DNA of 64,000 nt from Verrucomicrobiia bacterium (lineage in GTDB: Bacteria; Verrucomicrobiota; Verrucomicrobiia; Limisphaerales; DASXHY01). Made by a program: the position numbers and the translations under genes. The notes under the pieces were generated by a model, which was given only the letters and a program-made list of their open reading frames with translations, was not told where the DNA came from and did no database searches. The DNA is taken from positions 1 to 64,000 of the forward strand of contig DASPIL010000096.1 of the NCBI GenBank assembly GCA_035629175.1, read 5' to 3'. This document shows positions 52,400-62,366 of this stretch, in pieces. The first letter of the stretch is position 1. Every line of letters begins with the position of its first letter.

Positions 52400-53236
52400 A
52401 TGAATTTTTGGAAATATCATGCGCTCGGAAACGATTACCTGGTTCTCGATCCGAAGGAACTGTCTGCGCCGCTAACGGTGAACCAGGTCAAGCGGATCTG
52501 TCATCGCAACTACGGCATTGGTTCCGATGGAATCCTGCTCGGGCCCATGCCATCGAACAATGCCCCTGTCGGATTGGTTATTTACAATCCCGACGGAAGC
52601 CAGGCGGAGAAGAGCGGCAACGGGCTGCGGATTTTTTCCCGTTATCTTTGGGATCGCAAAATTGTGGGGGACACAGAATTCGCAATCGAAACTGCGGGCG
52701 GGTTGGTGAAGTCGACGGTGTTCGACAACGGAAGGATGGTGCGCGTCGAGATGGGCCAGGTGAGCTTCGCCAGTGATCGGATCCCGGTGAACGGCGAGCG
52801 TCGTGAGGTCTTGAACGAGCAGATCCAGGCTGGTGATCGATTGTTCACTTATTGTGCGGCGACGGTGGGAAATCCGCATTGTGTGTTGCCGCTGCCGGAT
52901 ATTAGTGAGGAGCTCGCGCGCCGCTATGGGCCGTTGCTGGAGGTGCATCCCTATTTTCCGAATCGAACCAACGTGCAATTCCTCAAGGTGCTGGACCGAT
53001 CCAACATCCAGATTGAAATCTGGGAACGCGGCGCCGGTTACACGCTTGCATCGGGGAGCAGCAGCAGCGCGTCCGCCGCGGTTGCGCATCGGCTGGGTCT
53101 TTGCGACCGAGCGATCACGGTTCATATGCCAGGCGGGAAACTGGCAATCGAAATTGATCCCGGGTTTCACATCCGAATGACCGGGCCCGTGACGAGGGTT
53201 GCGGACGGAGTGTTGTCGGCTGAGATCCTGGCATGA
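52400..53236 (+). CDS. Diaminopimelate epimerase homologue without catalytic cysteines
   Basis: A 278-residue DapF-fold protein. The family framework is present: KYHALGNDYLVLD, YGIGSDGILLG, YNPDGSQAE, GNPHCVLPL, FPNRTNVQFL and ERGAGYTLAS. DapF uses two cysteines as acid and base; here the first (in the CGNGxRC motif) reads SGNGLRI with Ser72, and the second (in ACGTGAC) reads ASGSSSSA with Ser218. So it cannot use the known thiol mechanism. It may act on another substrate or be a non-racemase. The gene is clean, with no frameshift. I leave the symbol open for this reason. Confidence 0.85.
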   Translation: MNFWKYHALGNDYLVLDPKELSAPLTVNQVKRICHRNYGIGSDGILLGPMPSNNAPVGLVIYNPDGSQAEKSGNGLRIFSRYLWDRKIVGDTEFAIETAGGLVKSTVFDNGRMVRVEMGQVSFASDRIPVNGERREVLNEQIQAGDRLFTYCAATVGNPHCVLPLPDISEELARRYGPLLEVHPYFPNRTNVQFLKVLDRSNIQIEIWERGAGYTLASGSSSSASAAVAHRLGLCDRAITVHMPGGKLAIEIDPGFHIRMTGPVTRVADGVLSAEILA

Positions 53237-54702: not shown

Positions 54703-54715
54703 GTTGACGGTCAAC
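54703..54715. promoter_or_regulatory. Small palindrome between two phage genes
   Basis: GTTGAC-G-GTCAAC, between the giant protein's stop and the next start. In RNA it would form a 6-bp hairpin at the intergenic junction. Role unknown. Confidence 0.35.
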
Positions 54716-57700
54716 TACTCTTCCAAGGACATGGTTGACACCGGCACGCCCTTGGCGCGCGACCGGATGTCGAGGTTTGCGGGCGTCGTGCCACGCTTCC
54801 GAATCGGAAGTTCTTCGGCTGCCGCCTTCCTAGACGGCATCCACTGCTCCAACACCTCAGCAGAGCGGAGCCGGTCCAAAATTGGCATAACCGTCTGTAG
54901 CGGCTGGGCGGTGACCTCGCCGCGGGAATTTCGGATGCGTGATTCACCGCTCAGCTCACTGACGTTTTTGAACTTTTTCAGGAAGCCAATCGGACGACCC
55001 GCGACCTGGAACGGATAGCTGAAGTGGAAATCCGTTTTTTGTGGCCTCTGAGCGACCGGGATTTCCAGGAGCGCAACGACAGTGCCGAAGTCGACGTCCA
55101 CGAGCTCGGGGTCCGCGATGTCTGCGGCGACCTGGTCAGGGGCGATCCCGATTTCTTTCGCTTCGTTGGCGTGTATCGGCAGCTCCTTCTGCACCGCACG
55201 CTTCAGGTAGGTCGCGGCCAACCCAAAGTCGATTGCGCCTTCGTCAATTGCGCGTTTGAAGTCCGCCAGGGACTTTATGTTGCGGGCGATTACTTTCTTT
55301 TCCTTTGGCACGGTATCGGACGCTTTGACGCGGTTGAAAATCTCGCGGATTTGGCGATCAGCCAACTTCTGTGAGACTGCACCGGCTTCGACTGCGGCCT
55401 GCAGCGCGTCGTGATAGGCCAGTTGGCCGTAACGCGACTTGAGGTGGTTCAACGGACTCAGCACCGAGACAGCCACCAGGGCAGAATCGTTGTCACCCGC
55501 GACATCTTTTACGCGACTCAAAAAACGGCTTGCCGATTGTTGATCTGAAAAAGCCCAACCGCCGTCTGCTGCAATGTAAGAGAACCCACGACCACCTTGC
55601 GCGTCAACCGAGACGGGCTTTTTAGCACCGGTCGGCCCGACTTCCTTGACGCCGACGCCGAGACGGTCTGCAGTGAGCACCATGACAGGTCGGTCGACAT
55701 AATCGCGCAGGTCCACCTTGTTGACCGGCAAGAACGCCGGGAGAACGTCTTCAGAAAGCGTGACGCTCTCCGCGTTCGCGCGCACCTTCACGTTGCCCTT
55801 GGTGGGCATGAACATCGGCTGGCCCTCAAGCACGCTGTTGCGCATCGCTTCGGTAATAGGCAGCGAATGGACGGGGTATAGGTCGGCCTCTTTCCATGCG
55901 TGGGCTTCGTCTTCACTCCGGAACTCCGGCCCGACCGCCTCCTCATCGTCGTTGAACCATTGCCAGCGATCCTCTTCAACCTCGCGCAATGAATAGGCCA
56001 TTTCTTGCCCTTCGTGAATAGAGGCTGCAGGCACGTCCCGCATCTCGACCTTCGCGCCGAACTTCTTGCCGAACTTATTGGCGAAATCGACGAGCATCTT
56101 GTCGTAGAAGCCCTTCATGCCTTCGCCGCCGACTTTGAGGTCGAGTCCGGACAAATGAACGCCGTCGTTCGCGACTTGCGGGTCGCTGACAATTTTGTCC
56201 GCAAGCTCTTTTCCGATTAGGTCTGGCAGGCGCGATGCGGGTTGATCGTCGAACTGCTGAAAAGTCCCATCCTTCAGCTCAATGTGCATTGAGTAGAGGT
56301 CGCGCTGGTCGTCCATTCGCCAAGCCGATACTTTTTCAACCTGCTTGCTCAGGTCGTAGCGCTCGGCCTGCATTTCTCCGGTCGTCCAGCCGATCCACTC
56401 CTTGCCCTCTTCGGCAGCCTGGCGGACGAGACGGCGGAAAACGAACTCGTGCCAGGTGTTCTTGAAAGGTGCGTCTGGGACGCCCGCTGTCGTCATGTTG
56501 TCCGCCGCCCACTCTCTCTGAGCTTGGAGGGCTTCTTCCTTGGTCTTGAAAAACAGGTAATCCCCCACTTTAAGATCGAGAAACTTAAAACGATGTCCGT
56601 CCGCATACCCCACTTCACCCACTCTGACTTCTTCGAGGGGGGTGACTTCCTTCCGCTGACGGTAGCCTTCTTTTCGCCCCTTTTGGTGCCAGTCGCTCTG
56701 AATCTCTTCGACGAAAAGCCCGGGCCTGCTGTCAGCGTCCACGCGGTCGTTGACGCGGGTATGCGCGAGCACGTTGGGCTCGTCCCAGTGGCTGGAGCGG
56801 AACACCTTGTCCGCGTGCTGCTGATTTGGTCGACCCCCGCCGTGGAGCCGGTCGGCCGCAAACCGCTGTGCTTCCGCAAGAGACCTCGCTCCGAACTCAG
56901 GCCCAACACGCTTGCCGTCCGCATCGACATGCTCCCACGCATAGGGCCGCGAGGGGTCCGTTTTTCGGACAACGTGACCTTCAGGCAAAGTGAAATTGCC
57001 CTGCAGTTCCTTTGCGGGCGGCATCGTGAACAACATCTCGCGGTAGTTTTCGCCGCCAGGCAGTTGATATCGCGAGAACTTCGTCGGAGCACCGTCGTTG
57101 TCGAACTCACTCCGGCGCGTCGCTTCTTCGGCCATCTCAAAACGCCTTTGCGCCTGCCAGTCATCACCGTTTTCCTGCCAGCGTTGGGCTTCGCGCTCTA
57201 AACGGGCAGCTACGTCAACCCACGCTTCAGACGAGTTTGGTCGGTCCACTGAATTGCGTTCGAGCCAACCCTGTAAAGCCGGAGAAAGTTCCTGCGCACC
57301 GCCTTTAACCACCTCTTTGACTTCGAGCCGATTCTGCTCCAAAAAGTCGAGCACCTCTTGCTTGGTGACCTTCGTTTTCCCACTCAGGAAATCGTCGAGC
57401 CCGCTCCACTTCAGCTCTTCGCCTTTGACCCCGTTCTGCGGGTTCTTGAGCATTGCCTGGAGCTGTTCGGGCGTCGTCGAGTTTGCCATTTTCGAGCCGA
57501 CGACGCGTTCGAGCTGAGAGAACCAGACAGGGCCTTTCTCCTTGTTGCTCGAAGGCATGAAGTCGGCCTGGTCCAGCGCACCGGGTGCCGGAGCGTCCGG
57601 CGCGTCCGGAAGAGCCCGAGCGCGTTGGATGAGCGTCGGCCCGCGGCCTGCGGGAACATCTGCATCCATTGAAGGCAACTCGATCTCGTTGAAGAAATCA

Positions 57701-60700
57701 CGGATTGCTTGCTCCTTGTCCTTCGATGCAAAAATCGAGGTTGAGTCAGAGACAATCTCGCGCCCGCTTTCATCGAGCACGTTGACCGTCAGTCTGTCGA
57801 TTTTGCTTTGGTGAGCGAGCGCGTGTTCGAGCAATTTCTTGCCCTGCGTGCGCCAATATTTTGACCCGAGCTCAGCGCGGAAATTCCCGTCGTTGGGCGT
57901 GTAACGGATGCGGACGAATCCTGCTTTGATTGCGTCGAGACGTGCTGCCTGGTCCGGCGTGGCTTCAAAAGCTGTCCCAAACTTCGAGTTGAAAGCGTCG
58001 GCGTTTTTCGCCAGCGCGTTCTCGTGATACGCGTCCGCCAACGGCTGCGTTTCACCGTCCGGCAAAATCCATGCGGTTGGGTTCCCCTTGGCTTCAGACT
58101 TTGCTTTGGGAGCCTTGGGAGTGGTGTCGATCTGCGGCACGTATGCGTCGCGTGCTGCCTGCTCTTCGGCCGCCCAGCGCTCGTAATCGATTAGGCCGTT
58201 GGCCTTGAGCGGACGACCTTCGGCATCGCGCGCCGGTTCGGTGCCGGTCTTCGGAGCCTTCGGACCACGCTTGCCCGCCATGAACTGCGCGACGGGCTCT
58301 TCGTCAGTCCACTGCACCTTTTTCTCGAAGTCGAGACCGAGCGTGAACGCAGGACCGTTATCGACCTGGGAGTAGAAATCCTGGGTCTTCGCGACGTCGC
58401 CGACGATTGTGCCGCTGTGATCGACCGGATTGAGCGTGCTGTCTTGGTAGAGCAGCCCTTCGGGCACGAGCACGGATTCCTGCTTGAAGTGCTTGGAGAT
58501 TTCGAGCGCGGTTTTAGGCGAGATATTCGTAACCAAAAAGTTCTTGCCCTGGTCGACCCCCTTGTAAAATCCCTTGACCTCGACGAAGTCAAAACCCTGC
58601 TGCTTGAGCATGGCTGCAAGCTGCGCGTTGGCTTCGACGTTCGGCTTTGCGGTTGCGTCCCCGAGCGCTTCCTGCGTCGCCGTGAGGACAGACCAGCCCT
58701 TTTTCTTGAGTGCGCGCTCGATCTGCTTTGCGTTCTGAAACTCCGACGCTTTCGGAGCGCCGCGGACTTCGCTCGGCATGAAGCCAGCGTTCACCAAGTC
58801 GTCAGCAGGGAGCGCGAGGCGGTTTTGCTGCATCGGCTCTGCTTTGAGAATGTCGCGGACGTTGATCCACTCCGTCGTCTCCGTGAGTTCGCGAGTGTTG
58901 ACTCCTTCGTTGTCCAATTTCTTGCGCAGCGGATTCATTTCGACGATTGGGCGGTCGTCAAAGCTCTTGTAACGCTGAATCGGAAACTCGCCTTTTTTGT
59001 TCGGGAAAAGTTTGGGCTCCGTGATTTCGTTCGGATGCGTTTGCGCCTTGTTCAGGTCCTGGGCGCGAAGGTTTGTTGGATACTTCGTCACGCCTGCAAC
59101 CGTCATCTCACGCGCCGATTTCGGCGGGGCGATGCCTTGAACCAAGTTCAAGAATTGCATGCGTTCCTTGGAAATCTTCACAGGCGTGTAGTCGGGATTC
59201 TCTGCCGGGATGAAGCCCGAATAATTCTCCGGACGAACGACCTTCTCGCCGTTGCCCAGGTAGCCGTTGTCCTGGTTGGCGAGGTAGTCCTCAATGTCAC
59301 GGTTGAATTCAGCCTCCCCTTTGGCGGTGAGGCTGCCTTCTGCGTTCTCGTAGGGTAGTAAATCTCCCTTGCCTTTTTTGCCCGCTCGGGCGACAACTTC
59401 CTTGGCGTTGGCAAGCAGCTTGTCTGGACTAAAAACATTAACCTGCTGAACGCCCTCCTTTGTTACGCGAAAAGCGAAAGGAATGGCGGTCTTGCCAACG
59501 CCCTCTTCAATCCTCGGTCCTCCGTCACGTCCTTCCTCGATTTGTTCGCGCCGCGCCGTGCGGTTCATGTTTCCGTCCGTCTCCGCAGAGCGATACAGCA
59601 ATTGGACTGGGCGGCGGGTGTTCTCTGATAGCGTCGCGAATGCCTGCTTTTGCTCGGGCGTGAGTGCGGCGTCGGCTTCTACCGCTGACGCGGTCTCCGT
59701 CAAACCGATTTCATCGCGCGACCGCCGCGGGCCTTCGAATGGCTTGTAATCTTGCCGCGCGACCCCGCGCAGGTTCGGTGCTTCAGCGGCTGGAGCAGCT
59801 TCAGGCGAGGGGGCTGGGACAGCAGGTGCTTCGGCAGGCTTCACCGCTTCTTCAGGCAACGGGAAAAGTTCGACAATGCCCGACTCTTCGCGCGCTTTGC
59901 GCACCTGGGCCGTGGCTTCCGGTGTCGCGTCGAAATCATCCGTCAGCGTTTCAATGATGCGGGGAGGCTCCTGCGCTTTCTGCACAGGAACCTCGATAGG
60001 CTGCTTCGGTGCTGCGGGTTGAACCGGAATCTGGTTGACGGCTTCCTGCGGAATGGGTGGGGGAGTAGCGGCCTGCTTCGCCACCGGCGTCGGCGTTGCC
60101 TTCGGCTGGCCCGCCACAGGCGGCTTGGCGATCTCATTCATCGCGGCGGAGACTTCAGGGTCCGCAAGCCAGCCCTGCACGACGTCGTCAATGATGTTCG
60201 AGACACGTGGGGACGATTTAACCCCCATCACGGTTGACACCGGCTGTCCAGCCTCCGCAGTAGGAGAAAACTCGGTGCGGAAAAAGCCGAGTCGGTCGAG
60301 CGCGCCTGCGATAGAGCGCACGATTTTATCGCGTCCGGAAAGCGAGAGTCCGTCCAGGCGAGTCCCTTCAAGGTGCGCAGAAACCAGTTCCGTCACCAGT
60401 TCCATGTTGGGGTCCGCTGCGGCTCGTTGTTGATCGGTGAGCCCCTCGCGGCCGAGGTAAGCGTCTGCGAACTCTTTCTGGAAGTCCTTTCCGACCGCGT
60501 TCAGAATTTGGTTCCGGTCGGCTTCTGACATCACATATTTCGTGATGAAATGGGAGCCCTCGTGAGTTACCGCTGGGTCGGCGACCCACAGCAGAACTTT
60601 TTTCGCCGCACCATTGGCATCAGCCACTGTAACTTCGAAAGCACCGTCCTTATTGGCCATTCCCGGATTCGCTTTTTCTGCGAACTCTGGGGAAACCAAG

Positions 60701-62277
60701 TAAGCTTCCATTGTCGGCTTGTCTGATCCCGACGACAGGGCGGCGCGCATGCGGTTGACGATGCCTGCGGTATCTTTGTCGCGCTGATTCAGGTCGGAAA
60801 GCATGCGCGAATGCTCTGCCTCGAAAGCTTCCATCCCAGGAACATTCAGAGGAACGTCCTGCACAGTTTTCAAGGACCCCGCACGATAGTAAGCCGAGTT
60901 GAGTAGCTGGCGTGCGCGTGCGACCCCGCTGGCCACGGTCTGGGAAGCTGCGCCACCCGCCGCGCCAAGTGCAGTGCCGATACCAGCCATCGTGACCGCC
61001 TCTGCAGGGTCATCTGTGGCCGCCGCAAAAGGCATCGACCACGCGGTGCCGTGGGCCGCGCCGCGGGCTGTTGCGCCCAATCCTTTGACCACCGCATCAG
61101 AACCTAAAACCTTCGCTGCAAAATCGGTGGCACCGACCGCGCCGCGGGCTGCAAGCTTTGTTCCCAAGGAAGCCAGAATGCTCGGTCCAGGGTTACCCGT
61201 GACGACAGACAACACTGTTGCCGGGACGGCGGCGGCGTGGACCAGCGGGGTTTTTTGGACAAGGTCGCGACCCTTGTCAGCACCTTTTTGCATCAGTCCC
61301 GCGGTCGAGCGAATGAACCTCTCGGCTGCGCCTTCGGTCGCTGCGGTCCCGATTGTCTTCCCCGCGGCGTTAACTAACTGCATGCCGCCGTTGGCTGCTT
61401 TTACTGCGCGAAGTCCCGCGAGAAAAGGCACCCACAGCGTGGGGTCCGACAGGATAGCGGCTCCGCCGATGACCTTGGGGTCTAACTCAATTCCTTCCTT
61501 TGCAAGCGTCTCTGCATCGAGACCGGTAAGTTCACCGTAGACGCCTTGTCCTTGGGCGGTTTTACCGACCTGTTCACGGGCGGCGGCATCGTCGAAAAAG
61601 CGTTTGAGGTTGTCTTCAGGGAGCGCGAACGAGCCTGGGTCCATGATGTCGGCTTGAACCCGCTTGCCGAGCACCTTGTCAGCGACAGCTTCGCTGACTC
61701 CGACTTTGTTGAGAATCCCGCGTTCGACTTCGTCATTAACGAGAGTGCGGATGCCGCTGCGTGCCAGTCCGGCAAACCCCGTTGCCATCGTCTCCACGCC
61801 GCCCAGGGCTTCGCCGAGCTTCTTTTTGCCAACCGCAAGGGCAGCCTCCAGGGCCGACTTACCCTTACCGGTTTCCTTGGAGTAATCGTTCAGCGCAGCC
61901 TGCAGATTGAGTTCTGAGGCAGCCTTCGCTCCCGACTCGATGAAATGGCCAACTGTCTCGGGCAGCCGAGAAACACCTTCCACCACGGCACCTGCAGTAA
62001 CACCTTTGGTGCGGCGGGCCGACGCGATGTTGGCAAGCTTTTCAACTTGCTCGGGTTTCAGATACGACTTGTGCTGATTGTAGAAGTCGTGTGGCTCAAA
62101 CTTGTAGTTGGTGGCGAGCCCGTCGACTGACGCCGAATTGAAGAACTGCAAATCCTCGTCAAGTTGACGGTCTTCTGGCGGAGCCTGGAAGGAGGCGTCT
62201 TTGTCCGTTTCAGGGACCTGAAACGGACTGTTTGTAGCGGTGGGTTCGCGATCCTCGACAGGTATTTCAAAAGCCAT
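54715..62277 (-). CDS. Giant phage polyvalent protein (about 2520 residues)
   Basis: The largest gene here. From the N-terminus: a helical part with Gly/Ala-rich hydrophobic segments (about 230-420); a peptidase-like site HEGSH near residue 572; a Pro-rich linker (about 705-780); several domains with phage landmarks, including the WFSQLERVVGSKM domain with GVKGEELKWSGLDDFL near 1585, EEIQSDWHQKGRKEGY near 1855, NTWHEFVFRRLVRQAAEEG and AERYDLSKQVEK near 1945, and GEGMKGFYDKMLVDF near 2060; and a C-terminal VLTADRLGVGVKEV plus RGFSYI domain (about 2190-2300). These match the polyvalent proteins described by Iyer, Aravind and colleagues in 2017, injected with phage DNA. I use the ATG at 62277 (MAFEIPVED); a TTG at 62319 has AAGG before it. 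Confidence 0.85.
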   Translation of the reverse strand: MAFEIPVEDREPTATNSPFQVPETDKDASFQAPPEDRQLDEDLQFFNSASVDGLATNYKFEPHDFYNQHKSYLKPEQVEKLANIASARRTKGVTAGAVVEGVSRLPETVGHFIESGAKAASELNLQAALNDYSKETGKGKSALEAALAVGKKKLGEALGGVETMATGFAGLARSGIRTLVNDEVERGILNKVGVSEAVADKVLGKRVQADIMDPGSFALPEDNLKRFFDDAAAREQVGKTAQGQGVYGELTGLDAETLAKEGIELDPKVIGGAAILSDPTLWVPFLAGLRAVKAANGGMQLVNAAGKTIGTAATEGAAERFIRSTAGLMQKGADKGRDLVQKTPLVHAAAVPATVLSVVTGNPGPSILASLGTKLAARGAVGATDFAAKVLGSDAVVKGLGATARGAAHGTAWSMPFAAATDDPAEAVTMAGIGTALGAAGGAASQTVASGVARARQLLNSAYYRAGSLKTVQDVPLNVPGMEAFEAEHSRMLSDLNQRDKDTAGIVNRMRAALSSGSDKPTMEAYLVSPEFAEKANPGMANKDGAFEVTVADANGAAKKVLLWVADPAVTHEGSHFITKYVMSEADRNQILNAVGKDFQKEFADAYLGREGLTDQQRAAADPNMELVTELVSAHLEGTRLDGLSLSGRDKIVRSIAGALDRLGFFRTEFSPTAEAGQPVSTVMGVKSSPRVSNIIDDVVQGWLADPEVSAAMNEIAKPPVAGQPKATPTPVAKQAATPPPIPQEAVNQIPVQPAAPKQPIEVPVQKAQEPPRIIETLTDDFDATPEATAQVRKAREESGIVELFPLPEEAVKPAEAPAVPAPSPEAAPAAEAPNLRGVARQDYKPFEGPRRSRDEIGLTETASAVEADAALTPEQKQAFATLSENTRRPVQLLYRSAETDGNMNRTARREQIEEGRDGGPRIEEGVGKTAIPFAFRVTKEGVQQVNVFSPDKLLANAKEVVARAGKKGKGDLLPYENAEGSLTAKGEAEFNRDIEDYLANQDNGYLGNGEKVVRPENYSGFIPAENPDYTPVKISKERMQFLNLVQGIAPPKSAREMTVAGVTKYPTNLRAQDLNKAQTHPNEITEPKLFPNKKGEFPIQRYKSFDDRPIVEMNPLRKKLDNEGVNTRELTETTEWINVRDILKAEPMQQNRLALPADDLVNAGFMPSEVRGAPKASEFQNAKQIERALKKKGWSVLTATQEALGDATAKPNVEANAQLAAMLKQQGFDFVEVKGFYKGVDQGKNFLVTNISPKTALEISKHFKQESVLVPEGLLYQDSTLNPVDHSGTIVGDVAKTQDFYSQVDNGPAFTLGLDFEKKVQWTDEEPVAQFMAGKRGPKAPKTGTEPARDAEGRPLKANGLIDYERWAAEEQAARDAYVPQIDTTPKAPKAKSEAKGNPTAWILPDGETQPLADAYHENALAKNADAFNSKFGTAFEATPDQAARLDAIKAGFVRIRYTPNDGNFRAELGSKYWRTQGKKLLEHALAHQSKIDRLTVNVLDESGREIVSDSTSIFASKDKEQAIRDFFNEIELPSMDADVPAGRGPTLIQRARALPDAPDAPAPGALDQADFMPSSNKEKGPVWFSQLERVVGSKMANSTTPEQLQAMLKNPQNGVKGEELKWSGLDDFLSGKTKVTKQEVLDFLEQNRLEVKEVVKGGAQELSPALQGWLERNSVDRPNSSEAWVDVAARLEREAQRWQENGDDWQAQRRFEMAEEATRRSEFDNDGAPTKFSRYQLPGGENYREMLFTMPPAKELQGNFTLPEGHVVRKTDPSRPYAWEHVDADGKRVGPEFGARSLAEAQRFAADRLHGGGRPNQQHADKVFRSSHWDEPNVLAHTRVNDRVDADSRPGLFVEEIQSDWHQKGRKEGYRQRKEVTPLEEVRVGEVGYADGHRFKFLDLKVGDYLFFKTKEEALQAQREWAADNMTTAGVPDAPFKNTWHEFVFRRLVRQAAEEGKEWIGWTTGEMQAERYDLSKQVEKVSAWRMDDQRDLYSMHIELKDGTFQQFDDQPASRLPDLIGKELADKIVSDPQVANDGVHLSGLDLKVGGEGMKGFYDKMLVDFANKFGKKFGAKVEMRDVPAASIHEGQEMAYSLREVEEDRWQWFNDDEEAVGPEFRSEDEAHAWKEADLYPVHSLPITEAMRNSVLEGQPMFMPTKGNVKVRANAESVTLSEDVLPAFLPVNKVDLRDYVDRPVMVLTADRLGVGVKEVGPTGAKKPVSVDAQGGRGFSYIAADGGWAFSDQQSASRFLSRVKDVAGDNDSALVAVSVLSPLNHLKSRYGQLAYHDALQAAVEAGAVSQKLADRQIREIFNRVKASDTVPKEKKVIARNIKSLADFKRAIDEGAIDFGLAATYLKRAVQKELPIHANEAKEIGIAPDQVAADIADPELVDVDFGTVVALLEIPVAQRPQKTDFHFSYPFQVAGRPIGFLKKFKNVSELSGESRIRNSRGEVTAQPLQTVMPILDRLRSAEVLEQWMPSRKAAAEELPIRKRGTTPANLDIRSRAKGVPVSTMSLEE

Positions 62278-62366
62278 AAGTCTAAAAGTGATATGTGAAG
62301 TGGGAGGCCCTCGCGTCAACCGGACCTTGACCGGAACGCAAAATAGTTGCTACCCTGGATCGTTTT

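Follow-up and report, generated by a model that had tools for sequence, protein, structure and literature searches.

A cysteine-free sister clade of diaminopimelate epimerase with serine at both catalytic positions in Verrucomicrobiota and Cyanobacteria

The locus and its protein

The window analysed here, by which we mean the whole stretch of 64,000 nucleotides from a Verrucomicrobiia bacterium (contig DASPIL010000096.1, positions 1 to 64,000), carries a dapF homologue in which serine stands at both positions of the catalytic cysteines of diaminopimelate epimerase (Table 1). The neighbouring genes encode a prepilin-like protein and a YgaP-like membrane protein, and no dap genes adjoin it. The window also holds a long ORF on the minus strand, which gives a weak Pfam DUF3293 match below the cut-off and one PHROG match (phrog_7348, labelled endolysin, 8.5e-14, a profile of 2564 positions); judging from these matches, it possibly encodes a giant phage or mobile-element polyvalent protein.

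Table 1. Coordinates of the Ser/Ser dapF gene, of four of its codons and of the long ORF in the window
Feature	Position	Strand	Description	Basis
Ser/Ser dapF gene	52400..53236	+	278 aa, ATG start, TGA stop	ORF and translation
Lys71 codon AAG	52610..52612	+	invariant specific to the clade; Met in 30/30 aligned Cys/Cys sequences	
Ser72 codon AGC	52613..52615	+	site of the first catalytic Cys; directly precedes model helix 73-85	
Tyr214 codon TAC	53039..53041	+	invariant specific to the clade; Glu, Ile or Val in aligned Cys/Cys sequences	
Ser218 codon TCG	53051..53053	+	site of the second catalytic Cys; directly precedes model helix 219-231	
Long ORF	54715..62319	-	2534 aa	

In the translation of the window ORF, the context of Ser72 is AEKSGNGLRIF and that of Ser218 is ERGAGYTLASGSSSSA. 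Alignment to solved DapF structures places both serines at the catalytic cysteines ('ksgnglr' against 'qCGNGVR' and 'lasgsss' against 'laCGTGA'), as the initial annotation had proposed from the letters of the window. The same annotation held that the substrate-site motifs are kept, and the DAP contacts Asn11, Asn63, Asn74, Asn158, Asn191, Glu209 and Arg210 are indeed invariant in the Ser/Ser rows that were aligned; for most of these contacts, this extends to relatives of only 48% identity. Researchers have found that Ala mutants of N15, N74, N85, N159, N194, E212, R213 and T223 almost abolish the activity of Corynebacterium glutamicum DapF (PMC5296763); by alignment, the first seven are N11, N63, N74, N158, N191, E209 and R210 of the window protein, and the T223 position is Ser220, a change from T to S.

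The NCBI DapF model TIGR00652 scores the window protein at 241.8 bits, about twice its cut-off of 114.65, so annotation pipelines would call it an ordinary diaminopimelate epimerase. The model of the bifunctional DapF/glutamate racemase of the Chlamydia type (NF038284) gives 67.8 bits, far under its cut-off of 350, and a glutamate racemase side function was rejected on this score. The AlphaFold (AF2) model has the DapF fold (pLDDT 90.9), and both acid/base positions lie at the N-termini of two opposed central helices. In VIA comparisons, this model reaches Z scores of about 33-35 with many DapF entries, among them those of H. influenzae and Anabaena (best DapF 34.8), and lower values of 28-31 with the C. 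glutamicum and Mycobacterium tuberculosis enzymes (C. glutamicum 30), and the top match is O-ureidoserine racemase (7vdy) at 36.1.

The window protein thus agrees with DapF in profile, fold and DAP contacts, and also in its place in the pathway as the sole copy beside DapL and LysA, the operon being seen in relatives only, but it lacks the two cysteines. As two catalytic cysteines define DapF, we file it as a Ser/Ser sister clade that probably works like DapF. Compared with the Cys/Cys enzymes (TIGR00652; Haemophilus influenzae 1gqz, Anabaena 9mro, C. glutamicum 5m47), the clade shares the fold, the DAP contacts, the dapF-dapA-dapB context in relatives and the single copy per genome, whereas it differs in the Ser pair, in Lys71 for Met, in Tyr214 for Glu or Ile and in an SGSSS loop in place of CGTGA. 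The single laboratory mutants C73S and C217S of H. influenzae DapF (2q9h, 2q9j) have Ser at one equivalent site in a solved fold, but their catalysis is hindered and they are without Lys71, Tyr214 and the SSSS loop. O-ureidoserine racemase and the histidine racemases CntK and HisR show that a DapF-like fold is annotated for other amino acids; they serve other substrates and pathways, and the histidine racemases depend on Cys pairs (PMC11602996). The closest natural parallels are in the proline racemase superfamily, where the 4-hydroxyproline 2-epimerase B9JQV3 works with Ser93/Cys255 and the trans-3-hydroxyproline dehydratase B9K4G4 has Ser90/Thr256 (PMC4113996). Both have a catalytic Ser at a catalytic Cys position in the same fold, but they keep Cys on one face or perform dehydration, act on proline substrates and are only about 13-16% identical. 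The window protein, with Ser on both faces and DapF-type contacts, does not show the Ser/Thr pair and proline-type substrate site of such a dehydratase (t3HypD).

Conservation, distribution and pathway context

Serine occupies both sites in 145/145 distinct relatives (at least 45% identity). By codon, these sequences split into 106 AGY and 39 TCN at Ser72 and into 50 AGY and 95 TCN at Ser218. Since a switch between AGY and TCN takes two steps, this indicates that serine itself is under selection. The 145 relatives and the codon switching rule out a sequencing error, a frameshift or a pseudogene, and a recoded Cys or Sec codon is ruled out as the codons are ordinary AGY/TCN Ser codons. Besides Lys71 and Tyr214, Ser221 is also a clade-specific invariant. 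The initial annotation had allowed that a conserved Cys elsewhere could substitute, which was not found: C152 is invariant among the first 111 sequences but gives way to S, T, N, H or Y in wider ones, many Cys/Cys DapFs also have C34, and some have C161, which one Ser/Ser member has lost. Thus, no clade-specific Cys replaces the lost pair.

In a likelihood tree of 108 proteins, the 62 Ser/Ser sequences form a single clade (support 100/100) on a long stem (1.73 changes per column), so that the Ser/Ser branch presupposed earlier does exist. That the Ser/Ser gene arose in place by mere mutation of the Cys/Cys version of its neighbours is ruled out, because the two types share only about 30% identity and fall into separate clades. 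The hosts are Verrucomicrobiota (Limisphaerales, Opitutales and others) and some Cyanobacteria. An orthologue at 65-79% identity is present in 76 of 320 Limisphaerales (Verrucomicrobia subdivision 3) genomes, about 215 of which give only matches of at most 39%. The best 80 loci from a scan of 85,000 species genomes were all Ser/Ser (80/80); their hosts are Limisphaerales, Opitutales, Nostocales with related Cyanobacteria, and a handful of odd bins. In the tree, some inner forks of which are weak, the genes of Nostocales nest beside those of Limisphaerales, which points to a transfer of the Ser/Ser gene between phyla. A phage origin was rejected, as phage records give only matches below 60% identity, the best at about 36%. 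Three genomes of one genus (G565, G628 and G641; family f66, genus g157) have a Cys/Cys DapF of a different branch in a family that is otherwise Ser/Ser, which on tree position is a further replacement. In another otherwise Ser/Ser family (f99), a lone Cys/Cys DapF (L206, genome G597) stands on a very long branch (2.47).

The genome of the window is 96% complete, and a search with PF01678 or TIGR00652 found no second DapF-like gene or Cys/Cys DapF in it, which makes the window gene the only copy, a case that the initial annotation had raised conditionally. DapL, also suggested there, is present (577 bits), as is LysA (473 bits), which decarboxylates meso-DAP. A single TIGR00652 match was obtained in each of 35/35 Ser/Ser Limisphaerales genomes from 12 families, in each of the 22/22 Cys/Cys Limisphaerales genomes sampled and likewise in each Ser/Ser Opitutales genome tested; family f60 has both types, and some other Verrucomicrobiota hold both within one genome. 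LysA was above the cut-off in 21 of the 23 Ser/Ser Limisphaerales genomes tested. The meso-DAP dehydrogenase C-domain (PF16654) was found in 0/48 genomes, a set that includes the window genome (the cyanobacteria G801 and G957 lie outside it), and the dehydrogenase route to meso-DAP was rejected on this basis. Several Ser/Ser genomes are without plant-type DapL; LL-DAP must therefore be made otherwise there. Four small genomes of the same class (G490, G517, G637 and G701; family f71, genus g146; 1.6-2.1 Mb, 97-98% complete) have no DapF match, no plant-type DapL over the cut-off and LysA only below the cut-off, and a loss of the DAP pathway is possible in them.

Downstream of dapF, about 13 distinct Ser/Ser loci carry dapA on the same strand and mostly also dapB, and folK closes the order dapF-dapA-dapB-folK where the contig extends far enough. 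Ten Cys/Cys loci have the same order, dapA again following dapF in the same orientation, with dapB and folK wherever these were tested. Several loci also have a squalene-hopene cyclase gene upstream of dapF in divergent orientation. In most other Ser/Ser loci, including that of the window, dapF is away from the dap genes, as it is in part of the Cys/Cys set. The slot shared within one order indicates that two dapF types of about 30% identity interchange at one chromosomal position.

In Cyanobacteria, a Cys/Cys DapF (316-325 bits) accompanies the Ser/Ser gene in 12/14 genomes, before counting G746, which also carries both. The Ser/Ser gene is the only DapF in G801 and G957, single contigs of 2.84 and 3.05 Mb, which, in addition to LysA, encode an LL-DAP aminotransferase assigned to the PRK09276 family. 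In three Rivularia/Richelia loci (L063, L070 and L083), only 29-34 bases separate the Ser/Ser dapF from an LD-carboxypeptidase-like gene that precedes it on the same strand, an arrangement that suggests a peptidoglycan-recycling pair and thus a wall-related link.

Predicted function and competing readings

In our reading, to which we give a probability of roughly 0.7, the window protein is predicted to act as the diaminopimelate epimerase of its cell and represents a separate clade that is free of the catalytic cysteines. Conversion of LL-DAP to meso-DAP by the window protein is the simplest reading of the pathway, and this role is well supported by inference from the sole copy, the slot common with Cys/Cys dapF, the presence of DapL and LysA and the lack of a meso-DAP dehydrogenase match. 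The two cyanobacterial genomes with the Ser/Ser gene alone, the retention of the residues that C. glutamicum DapF needs and the codon switching also speak for it, and the 4-hydroxyproline epimerase with Ser93/Cys255 is a precedent (PMC4113996).

In the proposed mechanism, LL-DAP from DapL would bind with its distal L-centre held by N63, N158, N191, E209 and R210 and its proximal carboxylate between the two helix N-termini; one Ser would remove the alpha proton, and the other would return a proton on the opposite face. Since Ser is a poorer acid than Cys, helper residues are proposed: Lys71, which adjoins Ser72, Tyr214, which is near Ser218, and the helix ends may assist the Ser chemistry and lower its cost. 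Alternatively, Lys71 and Tyr214 may themselves be the acid and the base, like the Lys and Tyr that alanine racemase uses in this way. This part played by Lys71, Tyr214 and the helix ends is the weakest step of the proposal, and we put it forward tentatively, with the odds somewhat against it. As for the benefit of the Ser/Ser form, H2O2 inactivates C. glutamicum DapF via a disulfide between its catalytic cysteines (PMC5296763), which makes resistance to oxidation a candidate; by this analogy, it is plausible that the Ser/Ser protein would be immune to the oxidative Cys-Cys disulfide that disables ordinary DapF. We lean towards the combined picture of a thiol-free epimerase of the DapF fold that forms meso-DAP through a Ser on each face, possibly helped by Lys71 and Tyr214 as an acid-base pair, and that displaced the Cys/Cys form in place within one order and independently in some Cyanobacteria, perhaps owing to its immunity to oxidation.

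Several observations speak against the epimerase reading. Engineered Cys-to-Ser changes are described as a hindrance to catalysis, both in DapF and in racemases related to it (PMC12039745, PMC11602996), Cys-to-Ala changes kill C. glutamicum DapF, in which C83A and C221A almost abolish activity (PMC5296763), and the superfamily member with a Ser/Thr pair catalyses dehydration rather than epimerisation (PMC4113996). Most Ser/Ser Cyanobacteria and some other Verrucomicrobiota keep a Cys/Cys DapF, which allows a second function, and the window gene itself has no adjoining dap genes. One genome (G624) has DapL and LysA without a DapF match, which in a draft that is 97% complete is perhaps a draft gap.

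Retention of the Cys/Cys enzyme in most of these Cyanobacteria also speaks for a rival reading, in which the protein would act on DAP or a closely similar compound in another way, for example as a racemase, isomerase or dehydratase of a diamino acid, with another enzyme supplying meso-DAP. Fold members without one or both cysteines include the Ser/Thr dehydratase, PhzF has the same fold, the clade-specific Lys71 and Tyr214 hint at new chemistry, and the best VIA match is O-ureidoserine racemase rather than a DapF. However, the Cys/Cys dapF was replaced in the dapF-dapA-dapB-folK slot, the two types exclude each other within one order, the two single-contig cyanobacterial genomes carry the Ser/Ser gene alone and the DAP contacts are unchanged, so we consider a different reaction unlikely. 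A non-catalytic homologue retained for binding or regulation would explain the loss of both cysteines, and DapF does have a known non-metabolic partner, as the E. coli enzyme activates RppH (complexes 6d13 and 6vck); but invariance of the substrate contacts and of both serines across two phyla, the gene's status as the only copy where DapL and LysA are present, and the dap operon context make this highly improbable. The initial annotation had inferred a distinct activity or a non-catalytic protein, with meso-DAP made by another route if this is the only copy, and these options have lost ground through the same-slot replacement, the usual presence of LysA and the lack of a meso-DAP dehydrogenase match.

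Cell-wall chemistry bears on the remaining alternative. The genomes G440 (5,957,605 bp) and G616 (4,199,284 bp), which we tentatively take to be Opitutus terrae PB90-1 and Lacunisphaera limnophila IG16b, have one DapF each, of the Ser/Ser type. Rast et al. found by GC/MS that DAP in O. terrae and Lacunisphaera is at about 1/10 of the E. coli amount, and listed DapF without remark in the Lacunisphaera paper (PMC5303756). Taken together, DAP is probably present in cells whose sole DapF is cysteine-free. Against the epimerase reading, Opitutales, with mostly Ser/Ser DapF, have little DAP, and TLC detected no DL-DAP in Opitutaceae (PMC5303756). Such data would suit lineages that use LL-DAP in the wall, in which the protein is weak or specialised and little meso-DAP is needed, and DapL yields LL-DAP directly. 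Against this stand the occurrence of the meso-DAP decarboxylase LysA in nearly all Ser/Ser Limisphaerales genomes tested, the authors' explanation of the negative TLC by a low overall amount of DAP, and the facts that GC/MS did not resolve DAP isomers and that the walls are from Opitutaceae, not Limisphaerales (PMC5303756). We regard an LL-DAP wall as very unlikely, and keep the epimerase as the preferred reading.

Significance

DapF is the textbook example of an epimerase with two thiols, and some inhibitors owe their design to reaction with these cysteines. We found no description of a natural Ser/Ser DapF in the openly readable literature, and as far as that literature shows, epimerisation with Ser on both faces would be new. 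The clade exposes an annotation gap, as standard models call the Ser/Ser protein ordinary DapF, and it is relevant to the status of DAP in the walls of Opitutae, which is still debated.
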